Below are positions 389 to 11,706 of a stretch of 64,000 nucleotides of DNA, piece after piece (position 1 is the stretch's first letter; each line of letters begins with the position of its first letter). This DNA is from Lachnospiraceae bacterium (lineage in GTDB: Bacteria > Bacillota > Clostridia > Lachnospirales > Lachnospiraceae): contig CAJTEM010000021.1 in the NCBI GenBank assembly GCA_910575255.1, positions 1 through 64,000 on the forward strand, read 5' to 3'. Made by a program: the position numbers and the translations under genes. Under the pieces are notes generated by a model. That model ran no database searches and was not told the origin of the DNA. It saw only the letters and a program-made list of their open reading frames with translations.

Positions 389-3313
389 ATGAAAAAACGA
401 ATTTTAGAGTTGATTGAAGGCGAAGATAAGAAAAATCCTTTGACAGATGATGAGATCGCCATTCGTCTGGGGATAAACCGAAAAACAGTTACCCTTAACC
501 GCCAGGAAGCGGGAATTGCAGATTCCAGGGAACGGAAGCGTCCGGTATTAAAGGCAAGGCTCCGGGAATTGATAAAGGAAGACTCTGCCATGTCGGAACG
601 AGAACTGACCAGACGTTTGGAAGCGGAAGGATTTGTGGTGGGAAAGTATGTGGTTGGCAGGCTGGCAGAGGAGATTCGGGAAGAATATAGATCGGCAAAA
701 GCAAAAGAACAGGAAACTGTTGGAAAAACAGAAAAGAAAGTTTCTTCGCCGATATCTTGGGAAAAGCCGGACACCAGCGTGTTTCGGAATTTTATCGGCT
801 ATAGAGGAAGTCTGATGAACCAGATATCCCAGGCACAGGCAGCAGTCCTTTATCCCCCAAAGGGGCTTCATTGTCTGATTTACGGGCCGTCAGGGGTTGG
901 CAAAAGTTATTTGGCAGAGCTGATGCACAGCTTTGCCTGCGGTACGGAAAATTTCGGAAAAAATCCGCCTTATTTTGCTTTTAACTGTGCAGATTATGCG
1001 GACAACCCGCAGCTGCTTTTAGCCCAGCTGTTTGGTTATAATAAAGGCAGCTTTACCGGAGCGGATAAGGATCGCAAAGGTGTCGTGGAATTGTGCAATG
1101 GAGGAATATTGTTTCTCGATGAGGTTCACCGCCTTTCCCCGGAAGGCCAGGAGCTTCTGTTTTATTTGATGGACAGAGGCAGATTCCGCAGATTGGGCGA
1201 AGTAGATACCCAGCGGGAATGTCATCTGATGATTATTGCTGCAACGACAGAAAATCCTCAAAGCTCCCTTCTGGTAACCTTTCGGCGAAGAATCCCCATG
1301 ATTATTGAAATTCCTCCTTTGCGGGAGCGCCCGCAGGAAGAATGTCTGGAATTTATCAGCAGCTTTTTCTGGCAGGAAGCCAGTTTGCTGGGAAAATATA
1401 TTATTGTGAAAAAGGAAGTCCTGCAATATCTGATGAGCGTAGATTATGTGGGAAATGTGGGACAGGTTAAGTCAGATATTAAGGTGTGCTGTGCAAAGGC
1501 TTTTCTGGAAAGCAAGCGAAAAAAATCAGAAACTATCGAGGTTGATTTCGGATGTCTGACCAGGGGGATGAAGGGTGTGCTTCCGGCAGGTTATACAAGC
1601 CAGAATTTACGTCTGGTACAGGAGGATATGTATTTTTATCCGGAAGGTGCTCCCGGAGAGCAGAGATCAAGCGAAGAATTGAAGAATTGGGATCTTTATG
1701 GGATTTTGGAGCGCACCTATGACCGTCTGGTAAAAGCCGGAGTCAGTGAAGGAGAGATCAACAGCAGACTGACATCAGAGATAGAAGCGCAGCTCTTCCG
1801 GGGAATACGTCAGATAGAAAATTCTCGCTTCAGCGGAGATGAGATGGTGACGATTGTGGGCGAGGAGATCATGAAGATGACCAGGGATATCTATCAGATG
1901 GCAAAACAATATTTTGCCGATCTGCGGGACTCCCTTTTATATCCGCTGGCCGTTCACATGAAAATGGTACTTCAGAGAAATGACAGTAAAAGCCGGGTAG
2001 CAACCAGGGTGCAGGGATTAAAGACGAGATATAAGAGAGAATATGAGGCTGCTGAAAAGATCTGGCAGGAAATCAGCCGTAAATATTATCTTAGTGTGCC
2101 AGAAGAAGAGATTGGATTTCTGGCGATGTATCTATATCGCTTCCGGGAACATGAAGAGAGTGAAAAGAAGCGCATCAGTGTGCTTGTAGTTTCTCACGGG
2201 GCAGTCGCCTGCGGCATGGCGGAGGTGGCTAATGCAGTGCTTGGGACAGATCATGCCAAGGGACTGGAGATGAATTTAATGGATTCCCCGTCAGAAATGA
2301 CAGAAAAGGTTATTCAGGCAGCCTTGATGTTAAATCAGGGGAAAGGGATTATTATTCTGGCGGATATGGGTTCCCTGATGCTGGTAGGAGAAAAAATTCG
2401 GGAACGTTTAAAAATTTCCGTAGGCATTGTGGGAAGAACCGATACGATGATGGTCATCGAGGCAGTGCGCAGAACGCTCTGGACCGATGACAGCTTAGAG
2501 CAGATTGTGGAAGCATTAGATACCAAGCGTTTTCTTTCGCCGAGGGAATCGGGGAAAAAAACCTGTAAGAAGGCAGTTCTTTGTTTATGTATTACCGGGG
2601 AAGGATCGGCAAAGATGTTAAAGGACTTTATTGAAGAGCGCCTGAAAAGCAGTCTGGAAGGCGTTGAAATTCTGGTTCGCGGATATATCGAGGCGGCAGA
2701 TGTCAGCCAGATTATTCAGAAAGCGGAAGAAAATTATGAGATTCTGGCTATTGTAGGAACGATTGATCCGGAACAGGAAACCTATCCTTTCTTGTCACTT
2801 CAAAAAGTATATTCGGGAAATGGTCTGGGAATTCTTCGGAGAATTTTAAAGCGCCGGCAGCTATTGGAGGAAAATGATCTTAAAGAGGTAATCCATTCTC
2901 AGCACATTTTATTATCTTCAGGCTGCCGGTATAAGGATGAACTTCTGGATAAGATGATTGGAGGTTTGGCAAAGGACGGTTTTGTCGATGAGGGATTCCT
3001 GCTGAGCGTGTACAAAAGGGAAGGGATGATGACCACGGTTTTAAACGGAGGGATTGCAATTCCGCATGGGAATCCTGAATATGTCCAAAAACCGGCCATT
3101 GCGGTAACAAAATTAGACACACCGGTGGCATGGGATGGGATCAACACCGTAGATTTAATTTTTGTCCTGGCATTGGATGAAAAATCAAAAAAATATTTTG
3201 AGCAGTTATATCAGATTATCTCCGATGAATCCATGGTTTCTGCGCTTCGCAGATGTGGAAGGCCGGAAGAAATCTATCAGCTTTTATGCAGAAGCACAAA
3301 ATCAGACAAATAA
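389..3313 (+). CDS. LevR-family sigma-54-dependent PTS-regulated activator
   Basis: A 974-residue transcription activator predicted to open a sigma-54 promoter and to be controlled by PTS phosphorylation. Domains in order: an N-terminal winged helix (about 1-110); an AAA+ sigma-54-interaction domain with Walker A GPSGVGKS at 166-173 and a GSFTGA loop at 220-225 (the family norm is GAFTGA); a PRD near 480-590 with His523; a mannose-type EIIA-like domain with His603 in the SHG motif; a linker domain; and a C-terminal fructose/mannitol-type EIIA-like domain with His893 in IPHG. The second conserved PRD histidine position appears to be Tyr (FLAMYL). The start is supported by AAGGA six bases upstream. 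The target is almost certainly the operon beginning 47 bases downstream, which has a matching -24/-12 promoter. Which phosphorylation activates and which inhibits cannot be read from sequence. Confidence 0.92.
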   Translation: MKKRILELIEGEDKKNPLTDDEIAIRLGINRKTVTLNRQEAGIADSRERKRPVLKARLRELIKEDSAMSERELTRRLEAEGFVVGKYVVGRLAEEIREEYRSAKAKEQETVGKTEKKVSSPISWEKPDTSVFRNFIGYRGSLMNQISQAQAAVLYPPKGLHCLIYGPSGVGKSYLAELMHSFACGTENFGKNPPYFAFNCADYADNPQLLLAQLFGYNKGSFTGADKDRKGVVELCNGGILFLDEVHRLSPEGQELLFYLMDRGRFRRLGEVDTQRECHLMIIAATTENPQSSLLVTFRRRIPMIIEIPPLRERPQEECLEFISSFFWQEASLLGKYIIVKKEVLQYLMSVDYVGNVGQVKSDIKVCCAKAFLESKRKKSETIEVDFGCLTRGMKGVLPAGYTSQNLRLVQEDMYFYPEGAPGEQRSSEELKNWDLYGILERTYDRLVKAGVSEGEINSRLTSEIEAQLFRGIRQIENSRFSGDEMVTIVGEEIMKMTRDIYQMAKQYFADLRDSLLYPLAVHMKMVLQRNDSKSRVATRVQGLKTRYKREYEAAEKIWQEISRKYYLSVPEEEIGFLAMYLYRFREHEESEKKRISVLVVSHGAVACGMAEVANAVLGTDHAKGLEMNLMDSPSEMTEKVIQAALMLNQGKGIIILADMGSLMLVGEKIRERLKISVGIVGRTDTMMVIEAVRRTLWTDDSLEQIVEALDTKRFLSPRESGKKTCKKAVLCLCITGEGSAKMLKDFIEERLKSSLEGVEILVRGYIEAADVSQIIQKAEENYEILAIVGTIDPEQETYPFLSLQKVYSGNGLGILRRILKRRQLLEENDLKEVIHSQHILLSSGCRYKDELLDKMIGGLAKDGFVDEGFLLSVYKREGMMTTVLNGGIAIPHGNPEYVQKPAIAVTKLDTPVAWDGINTVDLIFVLALDEKSKKYFEQLYQIISDESMVSALRRCGRPEEIYQLLCRSTKSDK

Positions 3314-3329
3314 TGGCATGGTTCTTGCT
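3314..3329 (+). promoter_or_regulatory. Sigma-54 (-24/-12) promoter of the aldolase-PTS-dehydratase operon
   Basis: TGGCATG, four bases, then TTGCT. The invariant GG (3315-3316) and GC (3327-3328) are exactly ten bases apart, as sigma-54 requires, and only one base departs from the consensus TGGCACG-N4-TTGC. It lies directly after the stop of the LevR-type activator and about 30 bases before the aldolase start, giving a predicted transcript start near 3340. Confidence 0.9.
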
Positions 3330-3359
3330 CTTAATTAAGGTGAAAGGAGTGAGGACAAT

Positions 3360-3992
3360 ATGAGCATTCAGAATTTTCCAAAAGTAACTGTTATTCTAAG
3401 AGGTTACACCTATCCGCAGATTCGGTCAGTTGTGAAAAATCTTGCAGGAAGCAAGCTGCGCTCTGTTGAAATTACCATGAATACGCCAGGAGCCCTGGAA
3501 GCGATTGAAAAAATCAGCCAGGAATTTGGGGATTCGGTCATGGTTGGAGCAGGCACAGTGCTTACCTGCGAGCAGGCACAAGAATCTATTCGGGCAGGTG
3601 CAGCCTTTCTTTTATCTCCCACCATGCTGGATAAGAAGATTCTGGATCTGTGCAGAGAGAAGCATGTGATCAGCGTACCAGGCGCATTTTCTCCCACGGA
3701 AATTAAAAAGAGCTTTGAGGATGGTGCGGATATTGTAAAGGTATTTCCGGCAGCCAGATTGGGGAGCAGGTATCTGTCGGACATCGCGGCCCCTTTGGGA
3801 AAAATGCCGCTGATGGTGGTGGGGGGAATTGGGACTGCGAATATTGCGGAGTATTTTCAGGCAGGTGCGTCCTTTGCAGGAATTGCCTCTGGAATTTTTA
3901 ACAAGGAAGATATTCTCAGCCAAAATGAAGAGGGGATTCGGAAATCCATTGAAGAAATGGAGAATACATTAAGAAAACTGGAAGGAGAGTGA
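3360..3992 (+). CDS. eda: KDPG/KHG-type 2-keto-3-deoxy-phosphosugar-acid aldolase
   Basis: A class I aldolase of 210 residues, the normal length for the family. It is predicted to cleave a 2-keto-3-deoxy-6-phospho-hexonate into pyruvate and a triose phosphate. The Schiff-base lysine is Lys127 in VKVFPA, the catalytic glutamate is Glu37 in VEIT, and the phosphate/carboxylate-binding segments GAGTVL (63-68) and GGIG are present. It is the first gene after the sigma-54 promoter, with a GGAG-type ribosome site, and the PTS IIA gene starts four bases after its stop. The stereochemistry of the natural substrate (gluconate- or galactonate-derived) cannot be decided from sequence; the eda symbol marks the family, not proven specificity. 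Confidence 0.9.
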   Translation: MSIQNFPKVTVILRGYTYPQIRSVVKNLAGSKLRSVEITMNTPGALEAIEKISQEFGDSVMVGAGTVLTCEQAQESIRAGAAFLLSPTMLDKKILDLCREKHVISVPGAFSPTEIKKSFEDGADIVKVFPAARLGSRYLSDIAAPLGKMPLMVVGGIGTANIAEYFQAGASFAGIASGIFNKEDILSQNEEGIRKSIEEMENTLRKLEGE

Positions 3993-3996
3993 CAGT

Positions 3997-4461
3997 ATGA
4001 GCATTGCATTTGACCAATCTTTAATATTAAAGATTGAAAATGCGAAAACAAATATGGAGGTGCTTTCACAAATGTGTGAGCATCTCTGTGAAAGAGGAAT
4101 CGTTAAAGATACTTATTGTAAAGCAATTCTGGAGCGGGAAGAAAGTTTTCCGACGGGCCTGAATACCCATGGAATTAATGTGGCAATCCCCCATGCGGAT
4201 GTGAGTCATGTAAATACGGCATCATTGTGTGTAGCAGTATTAAACCCGACCGTTGATTTTCGTGCAATGGACGAGCCGGAGGATGCCGTAGCTGTAAGTC
4301 TGGTGATTATGCTGGTGCTTACAGAACCTCATGGACACCTGGAAATGCTCCAGAAAATTGTCGGTCTGATTCAAAATCAGGAAGATGTAAAGCAGATTAT
4401 CAATGCCAAAGATAAGGGAACGATTGAGGCCGTTATACGAAGATATCTGCTGGACGTATAA
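3997..4461 (+). CDS. PTS EIIA component, fructose/galactitol type
   Basis: A 154-residue cytoplasmic phosphocarrier that takes phosphate from HPr and passes it to the IIB protein. The phosphorylated histidine is His66 in the IPHAD motif, followed by the usual hydrophobic core segment (SLVIMLVLTEP). Length and motif match stand-alone GatA-like IIA proteins. It lies four bases after the aldolase and 85 bases before IIB, within one operon. Specificity is set by IIC and cannot be read from this subunit. Confidence 0.9.
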   Translation: MSIAFDQSLILKIENAKTNMEVLSQMCEHLCERGIVKDTYCKAILEREESFPTGLNTHGINVAIPHADVSHVNTASLCVAVLNPTVDFRAMDEPEDAVAVSLVIMLVLTEPHGHLEMLQKIVGLIQNQEDVKQIINAKDKGTIEAVIRRYLLDV

Positions 4462-4546
4462 AGGAAAGGCAGTGATTTGTTACACTGAATTTCTGCAGAT
4501 GCAAAATAAGAAAAAAGAAAAAAAGTTAAAGAAAGGAAAAATCATT

Positions 4547-4828
4547 ATGAAAAGAGTATTAGTGGCATGTGGAAACGGAATTGCAACTTCAACAGTTGTC
4601 GCAACGAAAATTCGTGAAAAATGTGAGGAAAATGGTGTTGCTGTCACCGTTAATCAGTGCAAGCTTTTAGAGGTAGAATCTAAAGCCGATGATTACGATT
4701 TGCTGGTAACTACCGGGAAATTTACCGGCGGAACCGTAACCATTCCAGTGATTACAGCAATCTCTCTTTTAACCGGAATCGGAGAAGAGGCGACTTTAGA
4801 TCAGATTGTGGAGGAACTGAAGAAATAA
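4547..4828 (+). CDS. PTS EIIB component, galactitol type
   Basis: A 93-residue IIB protein whose phosphorylated cysteine is Cys9 in the P-loop-like CGNGIATS motif at the N terminus, typical of GatB-like proteins. I place the start at the ATG preceded by AAAGGA nine bases upstream. A longer in-frame extension back to 4403 would overlap the IIA gene and add 48 residues that look like translated intergenic sequence. It carries phosphate from IIA to the incoming substrate at the membrane. Confidence 0.9.
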   Translation: MKRVLVACGNGIATSTVVATKIREKCEENGVAVTVNQCKLLEVESKADDYDLLVTTGKFTGGTVTIPVITAISLLTGIGEEATLDQIVEELKK

Positions 4829-4894
4829 GTAAACAAACAGTAAAAAAATACGGGAATAAGAGAAAATACGGGAATGTGAGTGGAGGTAGGCAAT

Positions 4895-6238
4895 ATGCAA
4901 ATATTTTATAATATTTTTAATGTGATCCTGGATGCCGGGGCAACGGTCATGCTTCCTATTATTATTACCATTGTGGGTCTTGTCTTTGGCGTTAAGCTGG
5001 GAAAGGCATTTCGCTCCGGCCTGATGCTTGGGATTGGTTTTGCGGGCATTAATCTGGTAATTAATATGATGAAAAGCAGTATTGGTCCGGCAGCACAGGC
5101 AATGGTTGAAAATTTTGGGATTCATCTGGATATTCTGGATGTGGGTTGGGGCTCGATTGCAGCAGTGACCTGGGCATCTCCAATTATTGCTTTGCTAATT
5201 TTTGCGATTCTGGCAACCAATATTATTATGCTTGTGCTGAAAATTACCGACACGCTGGATGTGGATATTTGGAATTACCATCACATGGCCATCGTGGGGA
5301 TTTTGGTATATTATGTGACAAAAAATGTGTTTTTGGGTGTTTCTGCATCCATCGTTATGGCTGTGGTTTCTTTTAAATTGTCCGACTGGACAGCGCCTCT
5401 GGTAGAGGATTTCTTTGGAATTCCGGGTGTTTCGCTTCCCACCATGTCGGCTTTATCCAGCGTGATTATTGCTGCTCCCTTAAACTGGATTTTGGATCGG
5501 ATACCTGGTGTAAATAAACTGGATTTCAGTGTAAAAGATGCCAAGAAATATTTGGGGATTTTCGGTGAACCCATGATGCTGGGGTTGATTTTCGGGTGCG
5601 TCATCGGGGCCCTGGCCCGTTATTCAGTGGCAGAAATTCTTACTCTTGGTGTAAATATGGCTACGGTTATGGTATTGATTCCTAAGATGACTTCCCTGTT
5701 TATGGAAGGTCTGATGCCGATTTCCGACGCGGCAAAGAAATTCTGCCAGGAGAAATTTAAAGGCAGAAATCTTTTGATTGGTCTGGACGCAGCAATTGTT
5801 GTAGGTAATCCGGACGTTATTACTACTTCTCTGATTGTTATCCCATTAACGATTCTGATGGCCGCCATATTGCCCGGAAACCGCGTGCTGCCCTTTGCTG
5901 ATCTGGCAGTTGTAACTTTCCGGGTAGCGCTGCCTGTGGCAATGACCAAGGGAAATCTGTTTAAAAATATTATTATCGGCCTTTTCTGCACAGCAGCGAT
6001 TTTGCTTGCCGGTACAGCAACTTCTCCGATCCTTACAGCACTTGCCACAGAGGTGGGGCTGGATTTGGGAAGCAATATGATTACATCTTTTGCAGGTCCC
6101 AGCCTGACCGTAAGTTATCTGATTTATACTGCATTTACAGGAAATCTGCTGATCTCTGTTCCGGTTATGCTTTTGGCAATTGGTGCAATATGGTTCTTTA
6201 TGGCACGTAAGGGACGTCAAAGCATGGCAAAGGCATAA
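4895..6238 (+). CDS. PTS EIIC permease, galactitol (GatC) type
   Basis: A polytopic membrane protein of 447 residues with about ten to twelve hydrophobic segments, matching the GatC-like IIC family. It translocates the substrate while IIB phosphorylates it. The chosen ATG has GGAGG eight bases upstream; an in-frame GTG at 4880 lies before that ribosome site and is unlikely. The only enzymes in the operon act on sugar acids, so the substrate is probably an aldonic acid rather than a polyol. That is inference from context; the family itself is known mainly from galactitol and other polyols. Confidence 0.88.
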   Translation: MQIFYNIFNVILDAGATVMLPIIITIVGLVFGVKLGKAFRSGLMLGIGFAGINLVINMMKSSIGPAAQAMVENFGIHLDILDVGWGSIAAVTWASPIIALLIFAILATNIIMLVLKITDTLDVDIWNYHHMAIVGILVYYVTKNVFLGVSASIVMAVVSFKLSDWTAPLVEDFFGIPGVSLPTMSALSSVIIAAPLNWILDRIPGVNKLDFSVKDAKKYLGIFGEPMMLGLIFGCVIGALARYSVAEILTLGVNMATVMVLIPKMTSLFMEGLMPISDAAKKFCQEKFKGRNLLIGLDAAIVVGNPDVITTSLIVIPLTILMAAILPGNRVLPFADLAVVTFRVALPVAMTKGNLFKNIIIGLFCTAAILLAGTATSPILTALATEVGLDLGSNMITSFAGPSLTVSYLIYTAFTGNLLISVPVMLLAIGAIWFFMARKGRQSMAKA

Positions 6239-6321
6239 AACAGCAAAATCCTGGACAGCGAAAAATATGGTGCCCGAAAGGGTATGCAACACTGTGAAAC
6301 GTGCACAGAATGGAGGAAATG

Positions 6322-7956
6322 ATGATAAGAGCAATTGATAAGCTGGAACCCTTTCAAAGAGCGATTTCAAAGGCTCATCTTGCCTCGGCAGGCGTATCCC
6401 TGGATGCGTTGGACACGAAACCGCTGATTGCCATCGCTAACAGCTGGAATGAAATTTGTCCGGGGCATGAGCCGCTAAAACAGCTTGCAGAGGAAGTAAA
6501 AAAAGGAATCCTGGAGTCCGGCGGAGAGCCGGTGGTATTTAATACCGTTGCCATGTGTGACGGAATAGCACAGGGACATTCCGGCATGCGTTACTGCCTG
6601 CCTCACCGGGAAATTATAACAGATTCAGCGGAAGCAATGATTGTGGGCGAAGGGGTGTTTGATGGTGTAGTTTACATGGGCTCCTGTGATAAGATTGTAC
6701 CCGGAATGCTTAATGCGGCAGCGAGAATTAATTTGCCGTCCGTTATCGTAACATCAGGTCCGTGTTTTGCCAAAATAAAGCCCAATGAGTCGAAGGAGCT
6801 TCGCCAGCGCTTTCTGCGGGGGGAGATTACTGAACGAGATGTAATCGAAGGAACTTTAAAATACTATACCGGGCCGGGAATTTGCCCGTTTTTAGGCACA
6901 GCCAACACCATGGGCGCATTGTGTGAAGCCTTAGGTATGATGCTTCCAGGCGGAAGCCTTATTCCTTCCAGTACCAGTATGCGCCGATTCTCAGCCAGAG
7001 AGTCGGGACGGGCAGTGATGAAGCTGGTGGAGAAGCAGATTACACCAGCGCAGATCATGACAAAGGAAGCCCTGGAAAATACCATTACCCTTCTCAGTGC
7101 CATTGGCGGCTCTCTGAATGCCCTTATACACCTTCCGGCGCTGGCAGCCGAATTGGGAATTGAACTGGATTGGGATGATTTTTCTGAAATTACAAGCAAA
7201 ACACCGGTACTGACGGCGATTGTTCCGAATGGCAATCAGACCGTAGTGGATCTGCATTACGCAGGAGGAATTCCGGCAGTAATGAAAGAACTGAAACCGG
7301 TGCTGCACCAGGAAGTAATGACCGTGACCGGAAAGACTCTTGGAGAAATCCTGGACGAAACTCCCGATGGTGACAAAGAAACCATTCGCAGTATGGCAGA
7401 ACCCATATCTAAAGCAGACGGCATACAGGTACTTTATGGAAACCTGGCGCCTGACGGGGCATTAGTGAAAACTTCCGCCGTGCCGGAAGATGTCCGTGTA
7501 TTTACAGGCACAGCAAAGGTATTCAACAGCGAAGATGAGTGTTATGGGGCATTTCGGGAAAAGCAGATTCAGGAAGGAGATGCCGTGATTGTCCGCTATG
7601 AAGGGCCCAAAGGCGGTCCCGGAATGAAGGAACTGCATCGGATCACGGAAATTATTAAGGGAATTCCCAAAACAGCCGTTATTACGGACGGAAGATTTTC
7701 AGGTGCCAGCGGCGGTCTTAGTATCGGATATTTATGTCCAGAAGCAGCAGATGGCGGACCTATTGCCCTGGTAAGGGATGGGGACAGAATCTCTGTGAAC
7801 CTGGCCAAAGGAGAGATACTTCTGGAGGTCAGCGAGGAAGAATTAGAAAAACGCAGAGCGGAATGGAAACCTGTGGAACGTGCCAGAGAGAAGGGACTGC
7901 TCCGCCGGTATGCGCAGACTGTCAGTACAGCCAGAAAAGGCGCAACGTTGAAATAA
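6322..7956 (+). CDS. IlvD/Edd-family sugar-acid (or phospho-sugar-acid) dehydratase
   Basis: A 544-residue iron-sulfur dehydratase of the family that holds dihydroxy-acid dehydratase, 6-phosphogluconate dehydratase and several aldonate dehydratases. Cluster-related cysteines are seen in AMCDG, GSCDK and the GICPF segment; the last is unusual, as relatives usually have a Gly-Gly-Met run after that cysteine. The ATG at 6322 is preferred because GGAGG ends five bases before it; ATGs at 6310 and 6319 are in frame but badly spaced. Being last in an operon with an aldolase and a PTS, it most likely makes the keto-deoxy-phospho acid that the aldolase cleaves. A role in branched-chain amino acid synthesis is less likely in this context. 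Confidence 0.85.
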   Translation: MIRAIDKLEPFQRAISKAHLASAGVSLDALDTKPLIAIANSWNEICPGHEPLKQLAEEVKKGILESGGEPVVFNTVAMCDGIAQGHSGMRYCLPHREIITDSAEAMIVGEGVFDGVVYMGSCDKIVPGMLNAAARINLPSVIVTSGPCFAKIKPNESKELRQRFLRGEITERDVIEGTLKYYTGPGICPFLGTANTMGALCEALGMMLPGGSLIPSSTSMRRFSARESGRAVMKLVEKQITPAQIMTKEALENTITLLSAIGGSLNALIHLPALAAELGIELDWDDFSEITSKTPVLTAIVPNGNQTVVDLHYAGGIPAVMKELKPVLHQEVMTVTGKTLGEILDETPDGDKETIRSMAEPISKADGIQVLYGNLAPDGALVKTSAVPEDVRVFTGTAKVFNSEDECYGAFREKQIQEGDAVIVRYEGPKGGPGMKELHRITEIIKGIPKTAVITDGRFSGASGGLSIGYLCPEAADGGPIALVRDGDRISVNLAKGEILLEVSEEELEKRRAEWKPVERAREKGLLRRYAQTVSTARKGATLK

Positions 7957-7962
7957 TGAATG

Positions 7963-8026
7963 AAAAACAGAATATTGCAGCAGTTTATAATTAGGAAAAA
8001 CGCTGCAATGTTCTGTTTTTTATTTT
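7963..8026. terminator. Bidirectional terminator after the dehydratase
   Basis: A long stem pairs AAAAACAGAATATTGCAGC with GCTGCAATGTTCTGTTTTT, with A-rich and T-rich flanks on either side, so it can stop transcripts from both strands. The minus-strand cotJC reading frame runs into it, one sign that this frame's end is not native. Confidence 0.85.
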
Positions 8027-9152: not shown

Positions 9153-9298
9153 AAGCAGGAGGACGGAAGCGGTACCCTGAAGCGCTTGCCCAAAAAGTCC
9201 TTTTACTGGTATCGGCGGGTGATTGAGACGAATGGGGAGGAGCTGTAAGCATCCTTCAGGCAGCCGGGATGATGATACAGGCGGGGAGGAAGATAAGG

Positions 9299-9556
9299 TT
9301 GAAGAAATGGCAATACAGGATCCGGGCAGAATGGGGAGTTCATGCCCGGGAGGCGGTAAAGCTGGTAAGGGAAGTGAAGAAATATAAAAGCCGCATTTTC
9401 GTAAAAGGGAACGGAAAATGCGCCGAAGCGTCGGATGTGATGGAACTCATGGAATTGGATCTGAAATGCGGACAAACGGCAGAGCTCATTCTGGAGGGCG
9501 AGGATGAGGAAGCAGCTCTGGCAGGAATGAAGGAATACTGGGAGGGGAATCTGTGA
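9299..9556 (+). CDS. HPr-like phosphocarrier with Asp at the Ser46 position
   Basis: An 85-residue HPr-fold protein. With the TTG start at 9299 (GGAGG nine bases upstream) the active-site histidine falls at position 15 in GVHAREA, exactly as in HPr; the family motif is GLHARPA, so Pro18 is Glu here. Aligning on the conserved Met48 and Met51 puts Asp at position 46, where HPr carries the serine phosphorylated by HPr kinase. A negative charge there mimics HPr-Ser-P. An upstream in-frame ATG at 9269 would give a ten-residue extension before the ribosome site. It sits alone ahead of pgi and is probably a paralogue of the main HPr, with a regulatory rather than a bulk transport role; this is inference. 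Confidence 0.82.
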   Translation: MKKWQYRIRAEWGVHAREAVKLVREVKKYKSRIFVKGNGKCAEASDVMELMELDLKCGQTAELILEGEDEEAALAGMKEYWEGNL

Positions 9557-11402: not shown

Positions 11403-11452
11403 TCGCTAAAGTGACCCGCCGCAGGCGGAGAATCCTGCGAAGCCGGATTTTT

Positions 11453-11706
11453 TTCTATCATAGGAAAGTGCGTCCTATGATAGAAAACGCTCCGCGGGGA
11501 TGCGCACTCCGCGCAGAGGAAGATGGCTGCTGTCGCAGCCGCGCTCCGGCGCGAGAGTCCGGCTTGCCGGACTCTTTGTTCTATCATAGGAAAGTGCGTC
11601 CTATGATAGAAAACGCTCCGCGGGGATGCGCACTCCGCGCAGAGGAAGATGGCTGCTGTCGCAGCCGCGCTCCGGCGCGAGAGTCCCCGGCTTGCCGGAC
11701 TCTTTG
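11453..11706. repeat. Tandem 126/128-bp intergenic repeat
   Basis: Two head-to-tail copies (11453-11578 and 11579-11706) are identical except for two extra C bases in the second. Each contains a hairpin built on TCTATCATAGGA and TCCTATGATAGA, a GC-rich segment (GGATGCGCACTCCGCGCA), and a terminator-like stem GAGTCCGGC/GCCGGACTC followed by TTTG. A third copy begins (TTCT) but is cut off. Shorter relatives occur at 40411 and 48191. An open frame across the array merely translates the repeat and is not a gene. Confidence 0.9.

Follow-up and report, generated by a model that had tools for sequence, protein, structure and literature searches.

In Escherichia coli, D-galactonate is degraded by the DeLey-Doudoroff pathway (dgoTKAD), in which the acid enters through a symporter and the 2-keto-3-deoxygalactonate (KDGal) kinase DgoK acts after dehydration. 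In the Entner-Doudoroff pathway (edd, eda), a 6-phosphoaldonate is dehydrated and the product undergoes aldol cleavage. The D-glucosaminate system of Salmonella (DgaR, dgaABCDEF) is described, in the excerpts of PMC4987338 and PMC9529869 used here, as a sugar-acid phosphotransferase system (PTS), and the galactitol system of E. coli joins the GatABC permease to further enzymes of polyol use. The locus described here recalls each of these systems in part. It lies in the window, the whole stretch of 64,000 nucleotides that was analysed, whose first base is also that of contig C21 (CAJTEM010000021.1) in the 5.14 Mb, 106-contig assembly of a gut bacterium of the Lachnospiraceae. Reading of the open reading frames revealed six intact genes in one direction at 389-7956.

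The whole interpretation rests on sequence comparison. The operon probably serves PTS-dependent catabolism of D-galactonate, and the general shape of the pathway, in which the PTS phosphorylates an acid that then passes to the dehydratase and the aldolase, is very probable. In the presence of substrate, a LevR-type activator controlled via its PTS-phosphorylation domains would switch on the sigma-54 promoter. IIABC would import D-galactonate and phosphorylate it at C6 to 6-phosphogalactonate, the IlvD/Edd-family dehydratase would remove water from it to give 2-keto-3-deoxy-6-phosphogalactonate (KDPGal), and the aldolase would split KDPGal into pyruvate and glyceraldehyde 3-phosphate. Phosphorylation by the PTS would stand in for DgoK, the kinase that the classical DeLey-Doudoroff pathway uses. 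The substrate, the order of the reactions and the regulation in this scheme are proposals, built on the gene content, promoter, linkage, dehydratase exchange and residue signatures observed in the sequences. A preliminary description of the locus had proposed the same route through an aldonate-6-phosphate for an unspecified sugar acid. The linkage, a DgoD-type alternative in 57 related loci and the lack of a linked kinase and of DgoK argue for that route, and the sugar acid can be narrowed to probably D-galactonate rather than a gluconate-like acid. The features are as follows.

389..3313, + strand: LevR-type sigma-54 activator, 974 amino acids (Pfam, motifs)
3314..3329, + strand: -24/-12 sigma-54 promoter, TGGCATGGTTCTTGCT (pattern match)
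3360..3992, + strand: aldolase of the 2-keto-3-deoxy-6-phosphogluconate (KDPG)/KDPGal family, 210 amino acids (Pfam; Schiff-base Lys127, Glu37, Val154)
3997..4461, + strand: galactitol-type EIIA, with IPHAD as the likely phospho-His motif (Pfam)
4547..4828, + strand: galactitol-type EIIB, with ACGNGIATS as the likely phospho-Cys motif (Pfam)
4895..6238, + strand: galactitol-family EIIC (Pfam PF03611)
6319..7956, + strand: IlvD/Edd-family dehydratase, 545 amino acids (Pfam, motifs)
7959..8024, + strand: terminator-like hairpin downstream of the dehydratase gene, its 3' arm rich in T (fold -32.9 kcal/mol, z -7.9)

The likely start codon of IIC is ATG 4895 and that of the dehydratase is ATG 6319 or 6322, with GTG 6301 disfavoured. 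Since a promoter precedes the aldolase gene and a hairpin follows the dehydratase gene, the promoter, aldolase, IIA, IIB, IIC, dehydratase and terminator form a well-bounded unit.

Conserved linkage was analysed by scanning genome contigs with a profile of the IIC alignment. The best 80 of 192 relatives were kept as the basis of all locus counts, a sample biased to IICs resembling that of the window. One of them (L040) matched the window at 100% identity in each of the six proteins, and another (L051) was apparently a contig of genome G056 again. Among the 80 loci, IIC was accompanied by the aldolase in 78, IIA in 79 and IIB in 80. Exactly one dehydratase was present in 80/80 loci, encoded on the IIC strand and no more than 6 kb from IIC. 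This enzyme was of the IlvD/Edd type in 23 loci and of the enolase-superfamily DgoD type in 57; no locus had both and none had neither. The dehydratase gene started at most 171 bp from the IIC stop codon in 79 of the 80 loci, with L111 (2.4 kb) as the exception. The 23 IlvD/Edd-type enzymes were 67-100% identical to the window dehydratase, and all 57 enolase-type enzymes were 48-53% identical to E. coli DgoD. Two of the latter were tested against the NCBIfam galactonate dehydratase equivalog and scored 607 and 610 bits (cut-off 311). Six positions that we take to be DgoD active-site residues, together with E310, were kept in all 54 readable sequences, the other three being gapped. Judged by their families, two unrelated dehydratases are exchanged behind the same transporter.

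Of the two versions, the one with the IlvD/Edd enzyme is the less common in this set of loci. Among 295 genomes of the order, this dehydratase occurred in the window's own genome and in G056, a member of another family with an 81% identical enzyme; the next matches listed were at most 49% identical. The operon is complete in G056 and its gene order is unchanged, with 73% identity for the aldolase, 76% for IIC and 50% for the activator. The preliminary description had seen in a galactitol-type PTS with an Edd-like dehydratase a version distinct from the Salmonella dga system. The distinction holds, but that combination is the rarer of two forms. In four Clostridium loci (L063, L074, L079 and L087), a 38-39% identical IlvD/Edd relative also lies beyond the operon, some 9 kb upstream. 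A conserved membrane-like protein of 143-202 amino acids is encoded 3' of the DgoD-type gene at L060:12637-13176 and in 30 further loci, mostly of Lactobacillales; the one tested had no Pfam or NCBIfam match.

All six proteins passed the curated Pfam cut-offs, which bears out the families assigned in the preliminary description. The activator scored 128 bits for Sigma54_activat, 44 for PRD, 38 for EIIA-man and 99 for PTS_EIIA_2; the aldolase scored 105 (PF01081), IIA 110 (PF00359), IIB 54 (PF02302), IIC 277 (PF03611), and the dehydratase 369 (PF00920) and 222 (PF24877). None of the parts passed the cut-off of the specific NCBIfam models suggested by their names. The aldolase reached 140 bits for eda (cut-off 156) and 133.5 for the DgoA-type model PRK09140 (207), the dehydratase 567 for TIGR00110 (ilvD; 618), 591 for PRK00911 (644) and 339 for TIGR01196 (edd; 708), and the activator 460 for the DagR model (1400). 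The scores for the galactitol models were 85 for IIA (139), 65 for IIB (95) and 418 for IIC (542). An EIIC-GAT domain (PF03611) together with IIA and IIB marks the PTS as galactitol-type, and tblastn pieces gave identities to E. coli GatABC of 41% and 37% in two pieces of IIC, 37% for IIB and 33% for IIA. The [IV]PH motif was found in IIA of 76/79 relatives, and a Cys among the first 16 residues of IIB in 79/80.

These placements bear on the possibility that the PTS imports a polyol or a neutral sugar and that the dehydratase uses an unphosphorylated acid from elsewhere. The nearest NCBIfam models and published descriptions do name such PTS genes galactitol-type, but none of the three subunits IIA, IIB and IIC reaches its galactitol cut-off and every one of the 80 loci has its dehydratase. 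Moreover, neither a polyol-phosphate dehydrogenase nor a tagatose-type aldolase was found among the six operon genes by Pfam, as the preliminary description had remarked. A polyol or neutral sugar is highly improbable as the substrate.

The stereochemistry of the aldolase points to KDPGal. The Schiff-base lysine (K127) and the catalytic glutamate (E37) of the window enzyme were kept in 78/78 relatives. V154 of the E. coli KDPGal aldolase, compared with T161 of KDPG aldolase, helps to set which C4 epimer is used, according to the portion of PMC4915726 consulted. Valine occupied the position of DgoA residue 154 in 78/78 operon aldolases, including that of the window. Among 30 control aldolases there were 27 Thr, one Ser and two unreadable residues, and no Val (0/28 readable); the controls were the best-scoring PF01081 matches in a 299-genome phylum sample and lean to canonical enzymes. 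Identity over the whole length was non-discriminating (25.5% to DgoA and 27.0% to Eda), which leaves room for a pathway of the same shape with another hexonate, either D-gluconate or D-talonate, gulonate or idonate (the latter also giving KDPGal). The Edd-like motifs of the dehydratase described below would suit such a reading, and IlvD/Edd enzymes act on several aldonates. The DgoD-type enzyme in the equivalent slot of 57/80 loci and the invariant Val154 speak for D-galactonate, and another hexonate seems unlikely.

Kinase genes were sought as evidence on the step at which phosphorylation occurs. DgoK (PF05035) had no match in the window's own genome and was not found in 48 of the 49 operon genomes, whose completeness was not given. 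The sole genome with DgoK, with two matches, was G302, which carries the DgoD-type operon L049 in the IIC group of the window. With DgoK and a PfkB protein resembling 2-keto-3-deoxygluconate (KDG) kinase as queries, none of the 80 loci gave a KDG/KDGal-kinase match at 5 kb or less from IIC, 60 of them being covered for 5 kb on both sides; matches lay 5.9-7.5 kb from IIC in five of the 80. In the phylum sample, a kinase was present at all eight DgoD loci (54-61% identical) that lacked a Gat-type PTS match. The stretches inspected there spanned 9.9-18 kb and the kinase was sometimes several kilobases off; at L175 the contig begins 95 bp before DgoD, so the upstream side was not covered.

The DgoD enzymes themselves differed accordingly in the loop after GWGE, which, as in the enolase superfamily, probably caps the active site. 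The loop read SGT[KR]T in 57/57 operon enzymes and EG[RK]A in the eight kinase-linked enzymes and E. coli DgoD. Two apparent exceptions with SGT[KR]T, L132 and L133, were accounted for by the longer stretches L168 and L169: in each, a different Gat-type PTS lies upstream of the DgoD gene. Altogether SGT[KR]T was found in 59/59 PTS-linked and 0/9 kinase-linked DgoD enzymes, a comparison that omits three distant DgoD matches (L135-L137, 37-39% at best) and does not count L134, apparently the L084 contig. L168:48-10620 and L169:27-10609 represent a second type of Gat-PTS operon, with an IIC 34-35% identical to that of the window and genes for a 2-hydroxyacid dehydrogenase, a galactarate/altronate-dehydratase-like protein, an SGT[KR]T-type DgoD and a PF01081 aldolase with Val. 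The L168 stretch further encodes a major facilitator superfamily transporter and the C-terminal portion of a LevR-like activator. The substrate of this second operon may be a different anionic acid.

The window dehydratase contains the motifs AMCDG, SCDK and PGIC, presumably with the Fe-S cysteines, and ITDGRFSG, presumably with the catalytic serine. It scored nearer to IlvD (591/567 bits) than to Edd (339 bits), so the earlier label of an Edd-like dehydratase applies to some of its motifs, while the enzyme is IlvD-like overall. In a quick tree, the window enzyme and the 23 locus enzymes (n = 24) formed one clade apart from 30 IlvD sequences (98% SH-aLRT); the alignment excluded L171 and L176, which had no readable IlvD/Edd protein. 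An Edd-like GMKELHR was found at residues 435-441, its GM-x-ELH adjoining the conserved GPKGGPGM stretch. L439 and H440 were present in 24/24 operon enzymes and 6/6 Edd, and in 0/30 IlvD and 0/10 other sugar-acid-type members, of which three are annotated as L-arabinonate dehydratase, one as D-xylonate dehydratase, and six are unassigned paralogs assumed to use unphosphorylated acids. AMCDG and SGASG were further matches to Edd. These motifs are consistent with a phosphorylated substrate and provide a lead, not a proof; taken with the DgoD loop, both types of dehydratase appear to carry motifs that fit a phosphorylated substrate.

True Edd was ruled out as the identity of the enzyme by the TIGR01196 cut-off, and none of the 299 phylum genomes had a true Edd match at E <= 1e-150. 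That the enzyme might instead be a second branched-chain-amino-acid IlvD, located here by chance, is hardly credible. IlvD does give the best family scores, but these lie below the IlvD cut-offs, the clade is separate, the position after IIC is fixed, and the genome has its own ilvD elsewhere, beside a leuB-like gene and 46% identical to the window enzyme. A second IlvD/Edd dehydratase of the same genome (581 amino acids; contig C53, L037:2239-3984) stands beside genes for a GntR-type regulator and TRAP-transporter-like proteins and probably belongs to a separate sugar-acid pathway. The own-genome neighbours outside the searched families were named by reading the sequence, not by a family scan.

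Several observations weigh against the proposed galactonate route. PfkB KDG-kinase-like genes are present on another contig of the window's genome, where they adjoin a second PF01081 aldolase. A genome that lacks DgoK may have another kinase, and PfkB kinases were not searched genome-wide; the kinase argument thus rests on linkage. The SGT[KR]T loop may be a more general sign of an anionic group at C6, because it also occurs in the DgoD of the Gat-PTS operon with a galactarate/altronate-dehydratase-like gene. Val154 is dispensable for galactonate use, as Thr was found in five of seven aldolases near kinase-type DgoD genes and Val in two. Only the motifs of the IlvD/Edd-type dehydratase point to Edd, since at 53 positions with fixed differences between operon enzymes and IlvD, Edd had the operon-type residue at 11 and the IlvD residue at 10. 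Finally, the IlvD/Edd and DgoD versions could handle different phosphorylated acids, the exchange marking a change of substrate. The 23 IlvD/Edd-type loci fell into two groups of 10 and 13 on the IIC tree, with at least three label changes on the best tree and three to four over bootstraps, as might be expected from such a change, although the starred branches force only one. A single IlvD/Edd clade was not rejected (p-AU 0.20), and the IIC tree does not settle the number of exchanges. Two DgoD-type loci, L049 and L053, lie inside the window's IIC group (support 84/93, inner branching unresolved; IIC 72-75% identical), and the aldolase residues and gene order are alike in both versions. Separate acids for the two versions are unlikely, and D-galactonate is retained as the probable substrate of both.

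The activator contains an AAA+ domain with GSFTGA, one PRD (501-584), an EIIA-man-like domain (598-708) and a C-terminal EIIA_2 domain (PF00359, 834-966). It thus has the sigma-54 AAA+ domain and GAFTGA-type motif of LevR proteins and one of their two PRDs, EIIA_2 replacing the second. An IPH-type motif was found in the last 170 amino acids of all 27 activators longer than 850 amino acids. The promoter reads TGGCAT-N5-TTGCT, with GG at 3315-3316 and GC at 3327-3328 (GG-N10-GC), 30 bp upstream of the aldolase ATG. It confirms the element that had been noted directly after the activator gene. A LevR-type activator of more than 600 amino acids occurred in 29 of the 80 loci, 27 of them with a GAFTGA-type motif, and the same 27 had TGGCA[CT]-N5-TTGC before the aldolase. 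Among the 49 aldolase loci without an activator, the element was found once, in L043; the contig there begins shortly before the aldolase, at the place expected for an activator. The match in 27/29 against 1/49 loci argues that the element is not due to chance. The two remaining LevR-like activators, in L054 (about 5.7-8.5 kb) and L081 (5701-8514), lack GAFTGA and their operons lack a -24/-12 match. A sigma-54 core-binding domain was found in 41 of the 49 operon genomes, and the window's own genome has sigma-54 as well. Activators occurred in 28 of the 49, and among these only the genome of L081 was without the domain; that of L054 has one. By sequence, the L054 and L081 proteins appear to be members of the LevR family that have lost the ability to act with sigma-54. 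By analogy with DgaR, as described in part of PMC4987338, phosphorylated HPr should activate the window activator and phosphorylated EII should inhibit it, the inhibitory site likely lying in its EIIA domain. At 9269-9556, just upstream of a phosphoglucose isomerase gene, the window encodes an additional member of the HPr family (PF00381, 72 bits), whose likely active His lies within VHAREA. Further downstream, at 11449-11686, the window contains a tandem pair of 112-nucleotide repeats (99% identical, spacing 126 nucleotides), beside a repeated hairpin-like sequence of GAGTCCGGCTTGCCGGACTC type.

What look like gene sets of this kind have appeared in the literature under other names. In the portions consulted, the blood-specific genes of Enterococcus faecalis include dgoD, eda and PTS-Gat-EIIABC, discussed in terms of galactitol (PMC6042284), and in E. 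cecorum a predicted galactitol PTS, with genes for the catabolism of galactonate on its flanks, is enriched in a clinical poultry lineage (PMC10117131). A galactonate PTS or a 6-phosphogalactonate dehydratase was named nowhere in the open-licence PMC literature searched, and neither "galactitol" nor "galactonate" appears in the main text of a sigma-54 regulon survey of Clostridiales (PMC6615313). We lean slightly towards a broader view, in which an unnamed PTS route for D-galactonate is widespread among Firmicutes and extends to some Actinomycetota. Its dehydratase would come from either of two unrelated families, each of which would have evolved an enzyme dedicated to the 6-phosphorylated acid, and the two enzymes would be interchangeable behind one transporter. 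Many genes annotated as "galactitol PTS" in enterococci, in lactobacilli and in clostridia would then in fact encode a galactonate PTS. If so, many anaerobes and lactic acid bacteria could use D-galactonate without a KDGal kinase, and PTS genes of a common type now called "galactitol", the E. faecalis and E. cecorum sets among them, would be re-labelled. D-Galactonate is apparently a contested nutrient in the mouse gut, where the E. coli galactonate repressor gene dgoR is repeatedly mutated and probably inactivated, a change linked to galactonate use in the excerpt of PMC7064181 consulted. The exchange of non-homologous dehydratases, with loop signatures that track the phosphorylation step, would offer a testable case of convergent substrate specificity.

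Compared with the known systems, the operon shares with the Entner-Doudoroff pathway the predicted dehydration of a 6-phosphoaldonate before aldol cleavage, and the ELH motif is common to Edd and the window dehydratase, whereas this enzyme scored 339 bits against an Edd cut-off of 708 and the aldolase has Val, not Thr. It shares the IIC family with E. coli GatABC, but the galactitol cut-offs are not reached and the GatYZ aldolase and GatD dehydrogenase of that system are not in the window operon. The Salmonella dga system, cited in the preliminary description as an analogous design, does resemble it in the LevR-family sigma-54 activator, the sugar-acid PTS, the 2-keto-3-deoxy-6-phospho intermediate and the aldolase, as far as the excerpts of the two papers named above describe it; identity was ruled out, as that system has a mannose-family permease and an ammonia lyase in place of the galactitol-family permease and dehydratase found here. 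From the DeLey-Doudoroff pathway the operon differs in its proposed PTS-first order, the absence of DgoK and the IlvD/Edd family of the window dehydratase, while the DgoD-type dehydratase of the sister operons, the Val154 KDPGal-type aldolase and the predicted end products are the same. The E. faecalis and E. cecorum sets, reported in the portions consulted as galactitol metabolism or as separate functions rather than as one galactonate PTS pathway, correspond by description to the DgoD version of the gene set, and one locus of E. cecorum (L065) belongs to the 57 loci of that version.

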